Made by a program: the position numbers and the translations under genes
Shown: piece after piece, positions 35,513-47,587 of the stretch
Layout: each line of letters opens with the position of its first letter
Position numbering within the stretch: the first letter of the stretch is position 1
Assembly (NCBI GenBank): GCA_026003215.1
Contig: BPGV01000001.1
Span: 981,001 to 1,045,000 of the forward strand
Length of the DNA: 64,000 nt
Direction: 5' to 3'
Origin: Bacteroidia bacterium
GTDB taxonomy: Bacteria; Bacteroidota; Bacteroidia; SpSt-205
The notes under the pieces: generated by a model
What the model saw: the letters and a program-made list of their open reading frames with translations, nothing else
Told to the model about the DNA's origin: nothing
The model's database searches: none

Positions 35513-36628
35513 ATGAGTACAGCGGCACAGATAGATTTTCAGCTCTATATGGGGCTTTTAGCGGCCGAACTGCCCCGCTTTTCCGTGCCGGGCATAGGGT
35601 CCTTTACCTGGCATGTAGAGCGCGCCCATGTCGACCCTAAATCCGGCACAGTCACCCCTCCCCACCCTGCCCTCAAATACGAGCCTGGCCATAAATATTT
35701 GGCAGAAACTATCGCCTTCTTACGAGATTACTTTAGCCTAAGTGAAAAAGAAGCCGAAGCTTTATTACGAGAAGTAGGCAGGCTCACAGCCGCCTATTTG
35801 CGAGCGGCTCCCGAGATGGACCTATGGCGCCTGGGCAAGCTCAAACGCATGGGCGGCTTGTATAAAGTAGAACTTCATGAGGAGGCGCCTATACCTTTTG
35901 TGATGGACTTGGCGGAGATTTCACTACGCGCAGGGGCCTCTCCTGTGGTTACCCTTGCCCAAAGCCCCACAGCGCTTTCTGAAGCGCCTAAAAAGCATAT
36001 AGAGACCTCCCCTCGCGCTCAGCCCATAGAGACGCCCTCTCCCACGGTCCCCCCTCAGCCCCGGTCCTCTCGGCGATGGCTCCCCATAGTGCTCGGGACC
36101 GTAGCTGTCATAGTCGTCATGGGTGCCATAACGTATGTAATCACCCGCAAGCGTACGCCGCCCCAGCCCGTAGAAATAAATCTTTCTACTAAGTCTGCCT
36201 CTACTCCTGCCCCAAAAGCCGAACCGCCCAAATCCTCCAAAGAGGCCTCCACCGCAAAGCCTACGCCAGCCGAAACATCCCCTGCGCAAACCCCATCTAC
36301 CGCGAAACCCTCTGCCCCACAAGCGCCTATCGCTTCTCCGAAGCCTTCCTCCCCACCAGAAGTAGCTCCTAAATCCCCCTCTAAGGAGGTTAAGACCTCC
36401 TCCCAGCCTCGGTACTACGTCATCGTAGGCGCCTACCCTTCTCGTAGTGAAGCAGAAGCCAAAGCCACTGCCTTTCCAGGGTACACCGTAGAATATCTCC
36501 CCCACCCTTCTAAGGCAGGGTGGTTTCGTGTAAGTATTTTTAGCTCAACTAATCGCCAACAAGCGGAAGCCTTCCTTCGAAAAATCAAATCGGAGGTACC
36601 CGATGCGTGGGTATATGCTGCCCCGTAA
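35513..36628 (+). CDS. HU-like/SPOR domain membrane protein
   Basis: A 371-residue fusion. Residues 1-125 resemble the HU-type (CCDC81-like) domain of Bacteroidota SPOR proteins: RFSVPGIGSFTWHVERAHVD and VTPPHPALKYEPGH. A single membrane helix lies at about 189-210 (WLPIVLGTVAVIVVMGAITY). A long Pro/Ala/Lys/Ser-rich periplasmic linker runs over 215-295. The C-terminal SPOR domain (298-371) has RYYVIVGAYPSRSEAEAKA and WFRVSIFSSTNRQQAEAFL. SPOR domains bind denuded peptidoglycan glycan at division sites. The cytosolic HU-like head might bind DNA or protein. Likely a cell-division or envelope-organising factor. Confidence 0.85.
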   Translation: MSTAAQIDFQLYMGLLAAELPRFSVPGIGSFTWHVERAHVDPKSGTVTPPHPALKYEPGHKYLAETIAFLRDYFSLSEKEAEALLREVGRLTAAYLRAAPEMDLWRLGKLKRMGGLYKVELHEEAPIPFVMDLAEISLRAGASPVVTLAQSPTALSEAPKKHIETSPRAQPIETPSPTVPPQPRSSRRWLPIVLGTVAVIVVMGAITYVITRKRTPPQPVEINLSTKSASTPAPKAEPPKSSKEASTAKPTPAETSPAQTPSTAKPSAPQAPIASPKPSSPPEVAPKSPSKEVKTSSQPRYYVIVGAYPSRSEAEAKATAFPGYTVEYLPHPSKAGWFRVSIFSSTNRQQAEAFLRKIKSEVPDAWVYAAP

Positions 36629-36658: not shown

Positions 36659-38575
36659 ATGTGCCGCATAGGAGGGGTATGGATGCGCCAGGGGCAAGGC
36701 ATTTCTCCCTCCCTCCTGGAAAGGAAGCTTTGGCTTATCGGAGAGCAGCAGGCCCATGGAGGACCTGATGGCGCAGGCGTATGGCTTGATTCCACAAAAC
36801 CTATAGGGCTGGTACATAGGCGCTTAGCCATCATTGACCTTTCGCCACGCGGGGCACAGCCCATGAGTCGTGGCCAGCTAACGGTTACCTATAATGGAGA
36901 AATCTACAACTATATCCAGATAAAGCAGAAACTTCAATCGCAGGGGTACCCTTTCACTACGGATACCGATACCGAGGTGCTTCTGTGGGGATGGCACGCC
37001 TGGGGCTTAGAGCTTCTTCCGCAGCTGCGGGGCATGTGGGCGTTTGCGCTTTGGGATGGAGAAGCTCTCTGGCTCGTGCGTGACCGCTTCGGAGTGAAAC
37101 CGCTCTTTTACCACATCGCTCCCCAAGAAATAGTATTTGCCTCGGAACTCGGCGCTTTACTCCCTTTGCTCCCTTCCTCCCCCGAATCTACCCCCGCACA
37201 CCTCCACCACTACCTTGCGTATGGATACCTCCCAGAGCCGCATACTTTCTATAAGGACATTCAGCAAGTACCTCCTGGACATGCCCTTCGCATAACATGT
37301 ACTGCTATCGAGCCTTTCCGCTATTGGGCACCCGAAAAGCTTTTCTTTACTGCCCCCCAACCTGTCCCCATAGAGGAAGCCGAATCTACCTTATTAGAAA
37401 GCTTCCAACGCCGTTTAGTGGCAGATGTACCCGTGGGTATTTTTCTAAGTGGGGGCATAGATTCTACTTTACTGGCGACCCTCCTTAGGCAAAAGTTAGA
37501 CATACCGCTGCCGGCTTTTACCTTAGGCTTCCAAGAAAAAGCCTATGATGAGACCCCACACGCCGCCCAAGTCGCTCAGTATTTGGGCCTACCCCACCAT
37601 GTCTTATACCTCTCTGCCGAAGACCTCCTGCCTCTCATAGAAAAGCTCCCCAGCTTATATGGGCAGCCTTTTGGCGATGCCTCGGCTTTGGCGGTGTATG
37701 CCTTAGCCCGCTTCACCCGCGAAAAAGTCAAAGTGGTACTTTCTGCCGATGGGGGAGATGAGCTCTTTGCTGGCTATGTACGACAGACCCAACCCATCGC
37801 CCGCCTTCGCTTTTGGGCAAAGTTCCTGCGGCTACTCCCGCTTAGTGGCACTCACCTGAGCAAGCTCTATCCCCGACAGGCCTTTCACAATCTGCCGACA
37901 AAACTCCTTAAGTTGAAATACTTCCGTGGGGAGCATTATGGGGAGCTTATTCAGGCTTTTCCCGAAAAACTGGCGGCCTCTTTGGTTGAAGATTTTTCTA
38001 CCTCGCCCTTCTCTGCGTTCTATGGCGCGGGCACTGATTGGGAACCCGTGAAAAGCCGTCAGTACATAGACCTTACGCAGTATTTACCCGCGGATGTGTT
38101 GCAAAAGGTAGACCGGGCTACGATGGCGTGGGCCTTAGAGGCTCGGGAGCCCTTTTTAGACCCGGAGTTGGTCGCCTTAGCTGGCCGGTTACCCAAAGCC
38201 CAACGCACACGCCAAGGCCAAGGGAAAATCCTCCTACGACAAATCCTACGACGATACCTTCCCCCTACGCTATGGCAACGGCCTAAACAAGGGTTCGCTC
38301 CACCGCTGGCCACATGGTTACGCGGGCCCTTGGCAGAAAAGCTCCGCTATTTCCTGTACAGTGAGGGTAGCCCTCTTAGAAGCCTTCCCCTCAACCTCAA
38401 GAATATCCGCTTGTATCATGCCCTTCTGGAAAAGGAGCAGGACGAATGGGCTATTTTTTTATGGCATGTATTCGTTTTAGGGTTGTGGGCTGAGTGGTTT
38501 TCTACCATATCTCCAGCAAGCGATAATCCACCCCTGGCCAGAAGTGCGCCGGCTTTGGACCGGCATACTTTTTGA
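36659..38575 (+). CDS. asnB: Asparagine synthetase (glutamine-hydrolysing)
   Basis: A 638-residue class II amidotransferase. Nucleophile Cys2 follows the start Met (MCRIGGVW). Glutaminase motifs are RRLAIIDLSPRGAQPM, VTYNGEIYNY and TDTDTEVLLWGW, then VRDRFGVKPLFY. The synthetase domain has the PP-loop SGGIDSTLLATLL (Ser264-Ser269), SADGGDELFAGY and DRATMAWALEAREPFLD. Transfers glutamine amide to aspartate; homologues in polysaccharide loci amidate other substrates, so AsnB is the leading but not only reading. No -7 box precedes the ATG, 30 bases after the SPOR gene. The 3' end overlaps the convergent repeat-protein gene by 74 bases. Confidence 0.88.
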   Translation: MCRIGGVWMRQGQGISPSLLERKLWLIGEQQAHGGPDGAGVWLDSTKPIGLVHRRLAIIDLSPRGAQPMSRGQLTVTYNGEIYNYIQIKQKLQSQGYPFTTDTDTEVLLWGWHAWGLELLPQLRGMWAFALWDGEALWLVRDRFGVKPLFYHIAPQEIVFASELGALLPLLPSSPESTPAHLHHYLAYGYLPEPHTFYKDIQQVPPGHALRITCTAIEPFRYWAPEKLFFTAPQPVPIEEAESTLLESFQRRLVADVPVGIFLSGGIDSTLLATLLRQKLDIPLPAFTLGFQEKAYDETPHAAQVAQYLGLPHHVLYLSAEDLLPLIEKLPSLYGQPFGDASALAVYALARFTREKVKVVLSADGGDELFAGYVRQTQPIARLRFWAKFLRLLPLSGTHLSKLYPRQAFHNLPTKLLKLKYFRGEHYGELIQAFPEKLAASLVEDFSTSPFSAFYGAGTDWEPVKSRQYIDLTQYLPADVLQKVDRATMAWALEAREPFLDPELVALAGRLPKAQRTRQGQGKILLRQILRRYLPPTLWQRPKQGFAPPLATWLRGPLAEKLRYFLYSEGSPLRSLPLNLKNIRLYHALLEKEQDEWAIFLWHVFVLGLWAEWFSTISPASDNPPLARSAPALDRHTF

Positions 38576-40130
38576 GCCATTCGGGGAGGCGCACACGTTC
38601 CTCAGGGTAAGCCCGCACCAGCCATGCAATCTGCCGCTTGCGTATGAGTTTCTCAATCTGGATAGCCTTGGTTTCCTCTACAGAAAGCCTTTTGCGCACA
38701 AGCACCATTCCCGCGAGCTCTCCAAATCCCTCTATCCCAGGCAAACCCTTGATATACCGCCGGTTTTTACCCTTATCAGAAGCCGGCTCAGCTACCCATA
38801 CCTCTATCTGCTTCACAGCCCAGACCTTGCGCTTTTCTAACCGAGGCTTTTTGAGCGGGTACCCTTTCCTATCGTAGAAATGTGCAAAAACATACACACG
38901 CCACCCCATCTTAATGCCTGCTACAGGTACACGGCCATAGTCGCGGGTATTGATCCATTCCCCGACGGTAAAGCCACTATAAGCGCTTACCAGGTCACAG
39001 TGCTTTTTGTGGTTGGTGAAAAGGTAGCGTAAGTCATGCGCCAGCCGTTCGGTGGCTGTCATGACTCCTTTTTTCTGGGCATCACAGGGGACGTCATAAG
39101 CGGCAGGCGAGCGGTGAGAGATAGTAGGCGTGGCACAGGTATAACGGTCAAAATTCCTATGACGCAGGACAGGCGGCCGACAGGCTACCGCTTCAGCGCG
39201 GGCAGGCCGATGAGGTACTACAGGCTCCGCACAAGAATACCTATCAAAGTTTCTGTGCTTGATTGCAGGAGGCAGGCAAGCTATACCCTCTGCGCGTTTA
39301 GGACGATGTGAAACGCCAGGAGAGGCACACCTATACCGGTCAAAGTTTCTCTTACGGAGCTTCGGGGGGGTGCAGGCAAGGGCCTCGGCATACGCATGAT
39401 GAGGGATAGGCGGCGGACTACAAGCATCGCGCGAGGAGGCACGATGTCGTATGGGACGCTCCTTGTACAACGGCTTTTCTGGCGTAGGCTGATGAGAAGG
39501 CTTGTAAGTGAGGAATCGCTGCTTCTCGGCTCGCCGAGGGAAGTGCGGGATAAGCGCCAGAGGCAAAAGAAACTTCTCTGCGCGGAGGCGATGTCGTGGT
39601 CCTTCGGCCGAAACACGTATACGCTCACTTTTAGGCGGCACATGCGCCACAGCAGGGGAGGGCGGCCGGGCTTTTTCGGTCTGACGAGTACTACGCTTAG
39701 GCCTAAAGAGAGGCGGACGATACTTCTCTACCAGGGCTGGGCGATGGGAAGGGTCCGCCGTACGAGGTCGGAACCCTTCCGCTCGGCTTATAGAACGATG
39801 CGACTTAGGCGCTGCAAAGAGGCGAAAGCGTTCGGCTCGGTTTGGGTGAGGTACAGTGGGGGCATACGGCCTAAAAGCTTCCCACCGGTCCATAGGCTTG
39901 TGCCGAGGCGTATATACCGGGAAGCGGAAGCGTTCCGCCCGACGCGAAGGTTTAGGCCGACCAAACCGGTCCACCCGAGCCTCTGCTCGGTGGCGTACCC
40001 GGCGCGCAGGACGCTTTTCTTCCACTCGGAGGCGCTCCGCACACTCAGGGCCCGAACACCGAGGCGCACTTCGCAGGTCCTGAGCCCACCCCACCGCTAA
40101 GAGCAAAAAGCTACCCAAAAACCGAAACAT
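38502..40130 (-). CDS. Secreted Arg/His/Cys tandem-repeat protein of unknown function
   Basis: A 542-residue, strongly basic protein with signal peptide MFRFLGSFLLLAVGWA before QDL. Residues 48-339 are about 18 degenerate tandem repeats of 15-18 residues, each ending in P-x-x-H or similar and often starting RAExFR. The last seven (230-339) carry C-x2-P-x3-H, for example CASPGVSH, CLPPAIKH, CAEPVVPH. Two forms alternate there, RNFDRYxCA and RAExxAC, making a 32-residue (96-base) higher-order repeat. Residues 345-542 are a non-repetitive basic domain (YSGFTVGEWINTRDYGRVPV, KMGWRVYVFAHFYDRKGYP). I recognise no family. Could bind metal, heme, nucleic acid or cell wall; none is shown. Confidence 0.72.
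   Translation of the reverse strand: MFRFLGSFLLLAVGWAQDLRSAPRCSGPECAERLRVEEKRPARRVRHRAEARVDRFGRPKPSRRAERFRFPVYTPRHKPMDRWEAFRPYAPTVPHPNRAERFRLFAAPKSHRSISRAEGFRPRTADPSHRPALVEKYRPPLFRPKRSTRQTEKARPPSPAVAHVPPKSERIRVSAEGPRHRLRAEKFLLPLALIPHFPRRAEKQRFLTYKPSHQPTPEKPLYKERPIRHRASSRDACSPPPIPHHAYAEALACTPPKLRKRNFDRYRCASPGVSHRPKRAEGIACLPPAIKHRNFDRYSCAEPVVPHRPARAEAVACRPPVLRHRNFDRYTCATPTISHRSPAAYDVPCDAQKKGVMTATERLAHDLRYLFTNHKKHCDLVSAYSGFTVGEWINTRDYGRVPVAGIKMGWRVYVFAHFYDRKGYPLKKPRLEKRKVWAVKQIEVWVAEPASDKGKNRRYIKGLPGIEGFGELAGMVLVRKRLSVEETKAIQIEKLIRKRQIAWLVRAYPEERVRLPEWLKKYAGPKPAHFWPGVDYRLLEIW
39114..39398 (-). repeat. Coding 96-base tandem repeat (three degenerate copies)
   Basis: Within the repeat protein, the 32-residue unit (17 + 15 residues) recurs about three times. 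The DNA shows it as near-identical stretches around 39148, 39240 and 39335 containing variants of CGGTCAAAGTTTCT. The surrounding repeats, up to 39989, are more diverged. Confidence 0.7.
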
Positions 40131-43414: not shown

Positions 43415-44632
43415 TTAGAAAGGACGCCCCACGCGTACCATGGCACACCGGAAGCCGACCGTAGCGGAAGCGGAATCCGCGTGTAAGAAGCGGCGGGCCC
43501 CACAGGTCACATAATACGCCACATCCGCCCAAGAGCCGCCCCGGTATACCTTAGCTGCGTCTGCGCCCAGTTCGGGCCATGAAGACCCACCGCCTTGTCC
43601 TTCTTGGCCTTGGGCAGCTAAAGCCTTAGGACTGTACAATAGGCTGGTTTTAGGGTCATAGGTATCGTCGTATTGGAACTGGTCTACCTGCACTTCGCCG
43701 CGGCGCCGATGAGGATTGAGATCTTCCGCATCTTCGTAGGTGAGCACTCGGTAGGTATCTTCAGTCCACTCAGCTACATTACCCGCCATATTGTACAGGC
43801 CGAAGTCATTCGGGTAAAAAGCCTTTACTGGAGCAGGGATCATGTAGGCATCATTTAGGCCTTCATAGAGGAGGGAACCGCCTTTGTTGGAGCGGCCGGC
43901 ATAGTCGCCTCGCCCGCGCTTGAAGTTGACCCGGAAGCGTCCCTTCATATCTCGCAGGCTGCGGCCCTCCCAGGGGTAAAGCTCTTGTTCGTAGCCGGCC
44001 CGAGCCGCATATTCCCATTCGGCTTCGGTAGGCAAGCGGTAGTCGGGATAGAGAATAGCTTCGGGGTCCCTTTCCGTAAGCTGCTTATTTACAATAGCGG
44101 TACGCCAGGCCGCAAACTCCCGGGCTTGGTGCCAGTTTACCCCTACCACCGGATACATGTGATACCCCTCATGCTGGAAGTAATAGCGCACATAGGGATC
44201 ATTGTAGGCCATCTCACGGAACCATACATTGGTATCCGGATACAGGAGTTGGGCCTTTTGGTCGCCCGAGTCTTTCTGCACGTAAAAGAGGAACTGCTTG
44301 TATTCGACATTAGGGACCTCCGTTTCGTCCATGAAAAAGCTGGCCACGGTGACTTGGCGCACTCGGGCATTGTGTTCATAATCCAGGTCTTTTTCCGTCC
44401 CGCCCATGTGGAAGGTACCCCCTTCAACAAATACCAATCCTGGCCCCGGCGGAAGCTCCCGATAAGGCTTCACATAAAAGCCTTCGCCTCCGCTCTTACG
44501 AGCAAACTTGAGTCCTGTCAAACGACTGGTGGAACCGGGGTCTTCTATGTTGCCGCCGCCACCACAGGCCACCAGGGCCAGAGCTACTACGGCTGCCCCT
44601 ACAAGAGGTATCCATTTTTTAGCCATAGGCAT
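43415..44632 (-). CDS. gldJ: SUMF1-fold lipoprotein of gliding/T9SS, GldJ/GldK type
   Basis: A 405-residue lipoprotein. The signal peptide ends in ALVAC with lipid Cys23, followed by Gly-rich GGGG. The formylglycine-generating-enzyme-like domain has GPGLVFVEGGTFHMGGTEKD, SFFMDETEVPNVEYKQFL, YPVVGVNWHQAREFAAWRT, YRLPTEAEWEYAARAGYE, NMAGNVAEWTEDTYR and VYRGGSWAD. GPGLVFVEGGTF and NDPYVRYYFQHEGYHMYPVV fit GldJ more than GldK, but both share the fold. Such lipoproteins belong to the gliding/type IX secretion machinery. Start: two ATGs fit, 44632 (3 bases after the -7 box) and 44626 (9 bases after). Adjacent PorP/SprF supports the role. Confidence 0.83.
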   Translation of the reverse strand: MPMAKKWIPLVGAAVVALALVACGGGGNIEDPGSTSRLTGLKFARKSGGEGFYVKPYRELPPGPGLVFVEGGTFHMGGTEKDLDYEHNARVRQVTVASFFMDETEVPNVEYKQFLFYVQKDSGDQKAQLLYPDTNVWFREMAYNDPYVRYYFQHEGYHMYPVVGVNWHQAREFAAWRTAIVNKQLTERDPEAILYPDYRLPTEAEWEYAARAGYEQELYPWEGRSLRDMKGRFRVNFKRGRGDYAGRSNKGGSLLYEGLNDAYMIPAPVKAFYPNDFGLYNMAGNVAEWTEDTYRVLTYEDAEDLNPHRRRGEVQVDQFQYDDTYDPKTSLLYSPKALAAQGQEGQGGGSSWPELGADAAKVYRGGSWADVAYYVTCGARRFLHADSASATVGFRCAMVRVGRPF

Positions 44633-44635
44633 GCG

Positions 44636-44643
44636 CAAAGGTA
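44636..44643 (-). promoter_or_regulatory. -7 element TACCTTTG
   Basis: Exact match, 3 bases before the ATG at 44632 and 9 before the ATG at 44626. The start that is used should show which spacing the transcript tolerates. Confidence 0.72.
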
Positions 44644-44651
44644 AGGGTTTT

Positions 44652-45635
44652 TTAGAATCTCGGACAAGGGTAGTTTCGTCTATGTTTCATCCCAAAACGC
44701 CGTTCCTTGTCAAACTCCATGACGAGCGACACCTCATGCGAGCCGGCAGAGATACGGTTAGTGAGGGTAGATATCGTATAGTCATACGAATACCCTACCC
44801 GGAACATTCCCTTTTGCAGGCCTACCAACCCGATGATAGCGTCTTGGTTTCTATACCACACCCCTATCACGATGGGGTCCAGATTCACATAGAAGCCCAA
44901 GTCTAACTGCTGGAAAGGCTGTTGGATACGATACATAATCGCGGGCCCAATAGATTGGCGGCCTTCCCGATTTCTATCAATAGGGATTTGCGCCCCAGCA
45001 AAGAAGGTCGCCCGAATAGGCAGGCGCGCTGTAGCCGGATTAGCCAACGAGACATTATAAAACCGCTGCTGCGGCTGCGTAATATGCATCACCGAAGTCC
45101 CAACATAAATGTACTTGTTGTAGTAAAGCGCTCCTGCATTCACATCTTCATGAATACGATTTTGGAAGAAGTTGCGTTCGTTGGTGGGGAGGACAAAGCC
45201 GGCGTTAGGGTCTATTTGGTCCGGGAAGCGCAGGCGATAAAAATCTATACTGGCTTGCATGATTCCCCCGGAAAGGCCCAGGCTCAAGGCGCTATTGCGA
45301 TTGAGCTCTATATGCAAGGCGTAGTTAAGGAGCACATTAAGCTTAGTGAGGTTCCCCTCACCGGCTTGGTCTGCCATGAACGACAACCCTATGCCATTAC
45401 GTACTCGCCCAAAGAAAATAGGCTGGTCATACGCCGCTGCGAAGGTGCGGTAATACCCAGGGATAGCCGTCCATTGCATCCGGTAGGCCAACGCCAGCCG
45501 CGGTCCCTCCGTAATCCCCGTAAAAGCGGGGGAGAGGATTACCTGGTTCGCAAAAAACTGCGAAAACTGCGGGTCTTGTGCCCACAACAGGGCTAAGCCC
45601 AGCCCGAGAAGAGAGTAGCCAACTTGTCTCCACAT
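44652..45635 (-). CDS. Type IX secretion membrane protein, PorP/SprF family
   Basis: A 327-residue outer-membrane protein. Signal peptide MWRQVGYSLLGLGLALLWAQ, then the family's opening DPQFSQFFANQVILSPAFTG. LALAYRMQWTAIPGYYRTFA, YDQPIFFGRVRNGIGLSFM, NAGALYYNKYIYVGTSVMHI and FRVGYSYDYTISTLTN follow, all PorP/SprF hallmarks. PorP/SprF barrels help secrete or anchor large T9SS substrates. The start is ATG 45633-45635; here the nearest -7 box is 18 bases upstream, so this mRNA should carry a short leader, unlike most genes here. Followed by the GldJ-type gene with its own promoter. Confidence 0.9.
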   Translation of the reverse strand: MWRQVGYSLLGLGLALLWAQDPQFSQFFANQVILSPAFTGITEGPRLALAYRMQWTAIPGYYRTFAAAYDQPIFFGRVRNGIGLSFMADQAGEGNLTKLNVLLNYALHIELNRNSALSLGLSGGIMQASIDFYRLRFPDQIDPNAGFVLPTNERNFFQNRIHEDVNAGALYYNKYIYVGTSVMHITQPQQRFYNVSLANPATARLPIRATFFAGAQIPIDRNREGRQSIGPAIMYRIQQPFQQLDLGFYVNLDPIVIGVWYRNQDAIIGLVGLQKGMFRVGYSYDYTISTLTNRISAGSHEVSLVMEFDKERRFGMKHRRNYPCPRF

Positions 45636-45653
45636 ACGAAGCAGGTTTCGGGG

Positions 45654-45661
45654 CAAATATA
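45654..45661 (-). promoter_or_regulatory. -7 element TATATTTG at leadered distance
   Basis: Exact TAnnTTTG on the minus strand, but 18 bases before the ATG at 45635. It predicts a leader of roughly 14 bases, an exception to the usual 3-8 base spacing. Confidence 0.6.
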
Positions 45662-45700
45662 AGCAAAAGAAAAACCCATACCTCCAAACCCGAAAGCAGG

Positions 45701-47587
45701 TTACCATCCCAGAAGGCGAAACTCTACTCGGCGATTTTTGCGCTGTCCTTCCGGCGTAGCATTGTCTGCGATAGGCCGAGCCTTCCCGTAGCCCACGATA
45801 TTAAAACGCTCACGCGCTATCCCCTTAGCCACCAAGTAATCCCGCACGGCCAAGGCCCTGGCCCGAGAAAGCTGTATCTCCGACTCCGGCAAGCTCGTAC
45901 CATCCGTATGTCCTGCCAGCTCCACCCGCACCCGCGGGTTAGCCCGTAGAAAACGCACAAACTCATCCAGCTGTCCATAAGATTCAGGTAAAAGCTTCGC
46001 ACTGCCCTTGTCAAAATGCACATAAAAAAGCGGGAACTTGAGCCCAGGACGCAGCTTCTCTACATAAATATCTACGCGATTCTCTCGGCCGGGGCGTGGC
46101 CGCACAGCCACCTCCTTCCAAATATGCCCTGGCACATGCACGCTCAGCCGAATCTCCCCCTTTACCGAGTCGGGCAGCGCCCACTGAAAAAAACCTGTAC
46201 TATCCCCTACCAAACTATCTATAAGGAGGCCTCGTTCCGTGTGGAAAAAAAGCAGAAAAGAATCCGCTTTACCCTCAGTTCGTACATATCCTATCAGGGT
46301 GGTAGGGGCCTGGGGCGAAGAAAAAGGCGTAGGGGCCGTATCTGGGCGCCACCATACCGCCCAGAAATCGGCACTTCCATAGGTACGGACGCCAAGTTGG
46401 TCGCCGGGGGAAGCGGTGGTCCCAAAGCCCACATACACGCTTTCTGCCACGGGAAAAAGTGCTACCCAGCTATCCATGTCCTTCCCGCCGAAAGTGTAGC
46501 AGAAGGCCAAGCTGTCGGTATGCCTATTCCACCGCAGGGCCCAGGCATCATACAAGCCGGCCAACCGAGGAATAAGGCCATTTCTGGAGCTGGTCATCCC
46601 TGCCACAAGCCAGTCCCCCTCCGGCGTAAGCGAAAGGGCATTTAGGCCTTCGTCGCCTGTACCCCCTCCACTCCAAGCCGCATACGCCGAACCCTCCACC
46701 TCAATGCGCCATATTACGCCATCGGCTCGGCCATACGCCGCTACCCCCCGCGAGAAACTGGTACCTGCGACCCAAACCTCGCCTTCTGGGCTAAGAGCCC
46801 AACTGTAAGGCTCCTCAAAATCGCCCCCGCCTATGTTCCAACTGCGTCGGTATCGGCCTTCTTTATCTACTTCTACGAGCCAGATGTCCATTTTGCCCAG
46901 GGGCTTTTGCACTTGACCGTCTGCGGAGGTAGAGGCACCTACCAGCCACACGGTATCGCCGGCAAGCGGTATCACCAGCCGCAGATAATCGTTTTCGCTC
47001 CCGCCGAAGGTCGCGTGCCTTAGGAGCTTCCCGTCCCGAGAGAGGCGAAGGAGCCATCCATCTATGCCGCCAAGCGGCTTAGGGTGAAGTACCGAGTCGC
47101 GCGAGCCGATCTGCCCTACTATCCATAGGGTCCCGTCTGGATGAAGGCCCACGCCTTGCGCCATGTCGTTTCCCTCTCCGCCAATCACCGCCTGCCAACG
47201 CACCTTGCCCAAAGGGTCTATGGAAAGTATATAAGCGTCCTTCTTACCATGGCTAAGCTCAGGAGAGTCCGTCCAGCCCACGAGGAGAAGCCCCCCTTCG
47301 GGCAAAAGGAGGGCATCGGTAAGCTCCTCATCTCCTTTTCTGCCATAGGTTTGGTGCCATAAAATTTCGCCGCTTTTGTCTATGCGCACCACCCACAGGT
47401 CAGCATCGTATCCTGACCGTTTGAGAAGGCCATCTCGAGAGCGCGTATGCCCGCAGAGCCAATAGCCCCCTCCATCCACCAAAGCCTCTACCATCACATC
47501 GGCCATACTGCCCCCATATACCTTTTGGTGCAAGACGTACTGAGCCGAGACAAGCGTTATACTACCGCACAGAACGAGCCACCTCAT
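45701..47587 (-). CDS. OmpA-family protein with N-terminal beta-propeller
   Basis: A 628-residue exported protein, signal peptide MRWLVLCGSITLVSAQ. Residues 20-410 form a repeat propeller with units of about 50 residues carrying D-x-W-(V/L) plus GG-x-x-x-D, such as YDADLWVVRIDKSGEILWHQ, KKDAYILSIDPLGKVRW and GIDGWLLRLSRDGKLLRH. A CRD-like beta domain (about 425-500) and an OmpA domain (YVHFDKGSAKLLPESYGQL, GHTDGTSLPESEIQLSRARA) follow. It lacks the TPR part of the two PorE-like genes at 11097-14943. Starts inside the last 26 bases of the ceramidase-like gene. Probably anchors an outer-membrane machine to peptidoglycan; next gene is PorP/SprF. Confidence 0.82.
   Translation of the reverse strand: MRWLVLCGSITLVSAQYVLHQKVYGGSMADVMVEALVDGGGYWLCGHTRSRDGLLKRSGYDADLWVVRIDKSGEILWHQTYGRKGDEELTDALLLPEGGLLLVGWTDSPELSHGKKDAYILSIDPLGKVRWQAVIGGEGNDMAQGVGLHPDGTLWIVGQIGSRDSVLHPKPLGGIDGWLLRLSRDGKLLRHATFGGSENDYLRLVIPLAGDTVWLVGASTSADGQVQKPLGKMDIWLVEVDKEGRYRRSWNIGGGDFEEPYSWALSPEGEVWVAGTSFSRGVAAYGRADGVIWRIEVEGSAYAAWSGGGTGDEGLNALSLTPEGDWLVAGMTSSRNGLIPRLAGLYDAWALRWNRHTDSLAFCYTFGGKDMDSWVALFPVAESVYVGFGTTASPGDQLGVRTYGSADFWAVWWRPDTAPTPFSSPQAPTTLIGYVRTEGKADSFLLFFHTERGLLIDSLVGDSTGFFQWALPDSVKGEIRLSVHVPGHIWKEVAVRPRPGRENRVDIYVEKLRPGLKFPLFYVHFDKGSAKLLPESYGQLDEFVRFLRANPRVRVELAGHTDGTSLPESEIQLSRARALAVRDYLVAKGIARERFNIVGYGKARPIADNATPEGQRKNRRVEFRLLGW

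Follow-up and report, generated by a model that had tools for sequence, protein, structure and literature searches.

We propose, tentatively and from sequence, that a highly basic repeat protein with a regular ‘ladder’ of cysteines may act as a multivalent scaffold or tether in the periplasm, or at least in the envelope, by means of disulfides. The protein belongs to a family that lacks a match in the libraries searched, yet turns up in all the genomes sampled from one genus and across seven families of the Bacteroidia; its most constant oddity is the row of regularly spaced cysteines, carried on an extremely basic chain that is predicted to be exported. The gene lies in a window of 64,000 nucleotides (the whole stretch of DNA analysed, to which all coordinates refer unless stated otherwise) from a single-contig genome of 2.27 Mb.

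Layout of the gene and its product

The reading frame is intact, running from an ATG at 40130 to a stop that ends at 38502; an earlier, sequence-only reading had the span right, but its strand needed correcting, as the gene is on the minus strand. The features are as follows.

38502..40130, minus strand: whole gene for the predicted exported Cys-ladder repeat protein, 542 amino acids (orthologues; dN/dS)
40080..40130, minus strand: predicted signal peptide, residues 1-17, cleavage near AQ/D, lipobox Cys absent (sequence inspection)
40041..40058, minus strand: N-terminal CxGxxC motif, residues 25-30, CSGPEC (orthologue comparison)
39441..39998, minus strand: Cys-free basic repeats, residues 45-230, of the form RAExFR...H, with 19% Arg and 16% Pro; length differs between species
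39111..39440, minus strand: Cys-ladder repeats, residues 231-340, seven Cys 15-17 residues apart, six of them in CX6H
38505..39110, minus strand: C-terminal non-repeat domain, residues 341-542, with C349 and C378 (alignment of 12; model)

At its 3' end the gene shares 74 bp with an asparagine synthase gene that converges on it (36659-38575); a fatty-acid hydroxylase gene is the divergent neighbour. That this is a real gene and not an accident is argued by orthologues in several genera, which keep the frame, and by dN values well below dS: against L031, dN is 0.11 and dS 1.84 in the C-terminal domain, where purifying selection is strongest, with corresponding values of 0.52 and 1.68 in the Cys-free repeats. 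We found no paralogue in the same genome.

The signal peptide (MFRFLGSFLLLAVGWAQ), read from the sequence as before, stands as a prediction, and many orthologues have a hydrophobic N-terminus ending near a Q. Together with the missing lipobox and the lack of a match to a sorting domain in Pfam or NCBIfam, this suggests Sec export to the periplasm; type IX secretion cargo was rejected as an identity, the C-terminal sorting domain not being found in those libraries. The mature protein has a net charge of +64 and a pI of 10.7. A simple heuristic script picked 87 exported proteins from a 464 kb sample of the same genome that takes in the window. None of them has a higher pI or Arg content than this protein, which comes second in Pro, third in His and ninth in Cys; this supports the earlier notion of an exported, Arg-rich scaffold.

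Matching residues 45-340 against themselves gives the strongest peak at a lag of 32 (58 identities, where the background is around 20), with further peaks at lags of 15-18, and the positions of His mark about 18 units of 15-18 residues each; both the tandem repeats and the two-unit, 32-residue super-repeat described earlier are thereby confirmed. In the ladder block, HRNFDRYxC units alternate with RAExxAC units. The super-repeat is further supported by tandem duplications of 30-33 codons in the DNA of four lineages (96 nt in family f1, 99 nt in f2, 93 nt in f41 and 90 nt in f65), with one of 48 nt in f49. No such DNA-level tandem repeat was found in the window copy, so its repeats are old.

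The claim that six of the last seven repeats place a Cys seven residues ahead of a His also held: His stands at +7 from C237, C268, C285, C300, C317 and C332, and not from C253 (CTPPKLRKR), whereas 100,000 shuffles gave a mean of 0.40 and a maximum of 4. A closing P-x-x-H, by contrast with what had been described, is at chance level (3 seen, 2.6 expected); P-x3-H is the commonest form (9), in part owing to the C-x2-P-x3-H units. The ladder then runs on into the non-repeat domain, whose length of about 200 residues had been correctly judged, with C349 sitting 17 residues beyond C332.

Distribution and conservation

Neither the whole protein nor its C-terminal domain matched anything in Pfam, NCBIfam, PHROGs or PDB sequences by profile and sequence searches, so that the earlier failure to recognise a family stands; we also found no published description of such a protein in the open-licence literature, and no match on viral contigs. 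One marginal domain match in genome G139 (E 0.0088, 29 positions) was taken as chance. All 11 genomes of its own genus, which belongs to f1, have the protein, as do another f1 genus and f2, a family of the same order; distant members occur in five further families of the class (f41, f49, f65, f67 and f76), and always at one place per genome. A class-wide draw found it in 22 of 395 genomes, while in a phylum-wide draw of 395 its own genome was the sole carrier; 13 genomes of f3, which belongs to the order of f49, lack it. Those relatives that carry names, KatS3mg026 and SKYG57 among them, are MAGs of uncultured Bacteroidia, probably of hot-spring origin to judge by their isolate names.

In a tree of the C-terminal domain, f1, f41 and f65 each group together; the deep branches are without support, and the tree therefore does not support vertical descent between families. 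As for gene neighbours, only the convergent asnB is conserved, in five f1 genomes, and no conserved neighbour points to a partner.

Across lineages, the ladder sits directly N-terminal to the conserved domain and comprises 4-10 Cys per protein, spaced 15-18 residues apart (once 20), with an additional Cys within the last ladder unit of f49. This register is held in f1, f2, f41, f49, f65 and f76 despite changed residues between the cysteines, and the step from the last ladder Cys to the first domain Cys is exactly 17 residues in f1, f2, f65 and f76. Within an alignment of 12 C-terminal domains, C378 is present in every sequence and C349 in 11. Other parts vary more: the Cys-free repeats span about 100 to 354 residues, and the CxGxxC motif occurs once in f1, f2, f49 and f76, twice in f41, and not in f65 or f67. 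The f67 member (L066 7356-8369, genome G186) keeps the C-terminal domain and Cys-free repeats, and has neither ladder nor CxGxxC.

The partner His is far less constant than the Cys. Of the units in f1, f2 and f65, 76%, 87% and 100% (16/16), respectively, have it at +7; CX6H is complete in G011 (7/7), and G010 keeps it in 1/4; in f49 and f76 it is found at +8 or +9 (CX7H or CX8H), and in f41 every Cys rung is retained with few His at these positions (G051) or none (G123). By family, the spacing is thus CX6H in three, CX7-8H in two and mostly lost in one, the seventh being without ladder Cys. That the Cys are kept while the His shifts favours thiol chemistry over a fixed metal site.

A proposed disulfide scaffold and its alternatives

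Among the ideas in the sequence-only reading, disulfide-linked scaffolding is the one that the sequences favour, with binding of an anionic polymer plausible on charge alone. We suggest that the repeat region is extended and mostly unstructured, and that the C-terminal domain forms the folded part, serving in anchoring or recognition, with C349-C378 possibly its own disulfide. The ladder cysteines would then form disulfides with partner proteins or with other copies of the ladder protein, such that a single chain might link a number of partners at even spacing, and the Arg-, Lys- and His-rich repeats could make charge contacts with an anionic surface (peptidoglycan, lipopolysaccharide or a partner protein). 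The kept Cys register, the 17-residue junction, the mixture of odd and even Cys totals, the duplications and the extreme pI and Arg content all argue for such a scaffold. Against it, none of the carriers examined has VKOR, one of the enzymes that form disulfides (24 genomes searched); the f67 protein has the domain without ladder Cys, so the ladder is not needed everywhere; and we also count against it that AlphaFold gave no confident structure and that the neighbours name no partner.

Also in favour of the scaffold, permanent intermolecular disulfides are known among periplasmic proteins of Bacteroidota (PMC12635249). Apart from the GldK-SprF/PorG system, hardly any such permanent links joining one periplasmic protein to another have been described (PMC12635249). 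A natural multi-Cys protein of that compartment might provide another example, or might prove to be an additional component of the GldK-SprF/PorG system.

An alternative that we consider unlikely is that the ladder is a self-contained structural repeat: each 15-16 residue unit would form a strand and a turn, disulfides within the chain would stiffen a stalk or sheet, and the C-terminal domain would do the real work. A duplication unit of two repeats in several lineages, as in a hairpin, and f65 units that resemble a strand plus a DG turn are what one would expect of it. Odd numbers of ladder and total Cys are common, however, the totals across members being 8, 10, 11, 13, 14, 15 and 18, and numbers so varied and often odd disfavour one fixed set of internal disulfides; the repeats also have 14-16% Pro and very high Arg. 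With an alignment of six close sequences, the full-length AlphaFold model has a pLDDT of 44, and the ladder repeats, at about 33-42, show no predicted strands; models from so few and such close sequences neither establish nor rule out a repeat fold. The C-terminal domain model (pLDDT 53, pTM 0.47) has beta strands followed by helices, at low confidence, and a fold search with it, in which an SH3/Tudor/CarD-like fold was considered, gave nothing significant (best PDB match E 0.56; CarD E 0.8).

Slightly harder to sustain is a metal or heme binder, in which the Cys and His of one or two adjacent repeats would bind Zn, Cu, Fe or heme and so serve in storage, detoxification or electron transfer; we regard both this binding and these roles as rather unlikely. 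The strongly non-random CX6H of the window copy, complete also in f65 and G011, speaks in its favour. Conserved spacing had been the expectation of the sequence-only reading, which proposed metal or heme binding through a regular Cys/His ladder; orthologues in f49, f76 and f41 (and G010) depart from it, though they keep the Cys rungs themselves, and the fixed ladder as a binding site is not supported. His occurs in the Cys-free repeats too, and may thus be a feature of the repeat as such, independent of any Cys site. A repeat with a fixed Cys/His metal site was rejected on the lineage-dependent spacing (CX6H, CX7H, CX8H or absent), and a c-type multiheme cytochrome because CXXCH is absent from the protein and the ladder Cys are 15-17 residues apart.

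Improbable, in our estimation, is a simple binder of polyanions (peptidoglycan, lipopolysaccharide, extracellular DNA or silica) with incidental cysteines: the pI of 10.7, the net charge of +64 and the variable Arg/Pro/His-rich repeats would fit, but nothing in the repeats is better preserved than the Cys register, which is not expected of incidental residues.

Envelope parallels and a possible link to the gliding track

In seeking parallels for a disulfide scaffold, we compared the protein with known envelope components. TonB-type periplasmic linkers are Pro/Lys-rich, basic, extended and variable in length, and the ladder protein is likewise basic, Pro-rich and length-variable, and probably extended; it differs in having a signal peptide and no other membrane anchor, a regular Cys row and a different end domain. 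The Cys-tailed outer-membrane carriers SprF/PorP and PorG of Bacteroidota have a periplasmic unstructured segment with functional Cys and engage in envelope disulfide chemistry (PMC12635249), as is proposed for the ladder protein; basic residues and Pro near the Cys are a further likeness here. Each of these carriers, however, is a barrel whose tail has one Cys or two. The ladder protein looks soluble, its tandem repeats contain 4-10 Cys, and its domain is unrelated. The OmpA oligomers of P. gingivalis and T. forsythia likewise show intermolecular disulfides in the Bacteroidota envelope (PMC12635249), but are not repeat proteins, and we detected no relation to the ladder protein. Identity with PorP/SprF or PorG was also rejected, there being no PorP_SprF match and the real PorP/SprF homologues being separate genes.

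A more specific proposal, by analogy and to our minds a long shot, is that the protein is a ‘strap’ on the GldK track of gliding and type IX secretion. The Cys tails of SprF and PorG are disulfide-bonded to a conserved Cys of GldK (Liu et al. 2025, PMC12635249). In like manner, successive ladder Cys would bond successive GldK subunits at this exposed Cys, and the protein would line, stabilise or cross-link the moving track as a molecular belt, with a rung spacing that suits the subunit spacing. Cys356 of PorK is exposed on the inner rim of a 33-mer ring with inner and outer diameters of 380 and 540 A (PMC12635249), from which each subunit works out at 36-51 A; a stretch of 15-17 residues, if extended, would cover about 46-58 A. 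The genome itself encodes a PorP-GldKLMN-type operon whose GldK has KGC, as well as GldJ-like and Cys-tail SprF-like proteins, and the SprF tails of f49 and f76 (HRTLPCPRF and HKSYPCPRF) look like ladder units (HRSLDRMCYPKL and HKSFENMCYPKL). That likeness was spotted post hoc, however, in a small set chosen by hand. Both SprF and GldK are widespread among Bacteroidia, f3 having both without the ladder protein; f67 has SprF yet no ladder Cys; and the ladder gene is unlinked to SprF and GldK genes in G009, G011 and G012. Nearness to GldJ-like and SprF-like genes some 3-5 kb away was rejected as evidence, since it is not kept in these same three genomes. Were the proposal true, the strap would be a component of the gliding/type IX secretion machinery not known before.

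Several other loci came to light. The PorP-GldK-L-M-N-type operon lies at L165 9703-15293 (about 1.836 Mb on G000:C1), its genes named from sequence pattern and gene order, with a GldK that contains KGCPLANFKPGRGDYI. Within the window, at 43415-45707 (minus strand), a PorP/SprF homologue ending KHRRNYPCPRF adjoins a GldJ-type lipoprotein of the FGE fold, likely a gliding-track pair; the lipoprotein reads KGRFRVNFKRGRGDYA, with Arg at the position where GldK has Cys. A PorP/SprF class with a basic C-tail ending CP-x-F occurs in nearly every Bacteroidia genome sampled (L131, L119, L122, L126, L137-L142, L146, L149, L151, L152 and window 44652-45707), and has a single tail Cys, as against the Cys-X-Cys of F. 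johnsoniae SprF. Finally, a gene at 35513-36628 on the plus strand encodes a protein with a C-terminal SPOR domain and an N-terminal part that is HU-like by eye.
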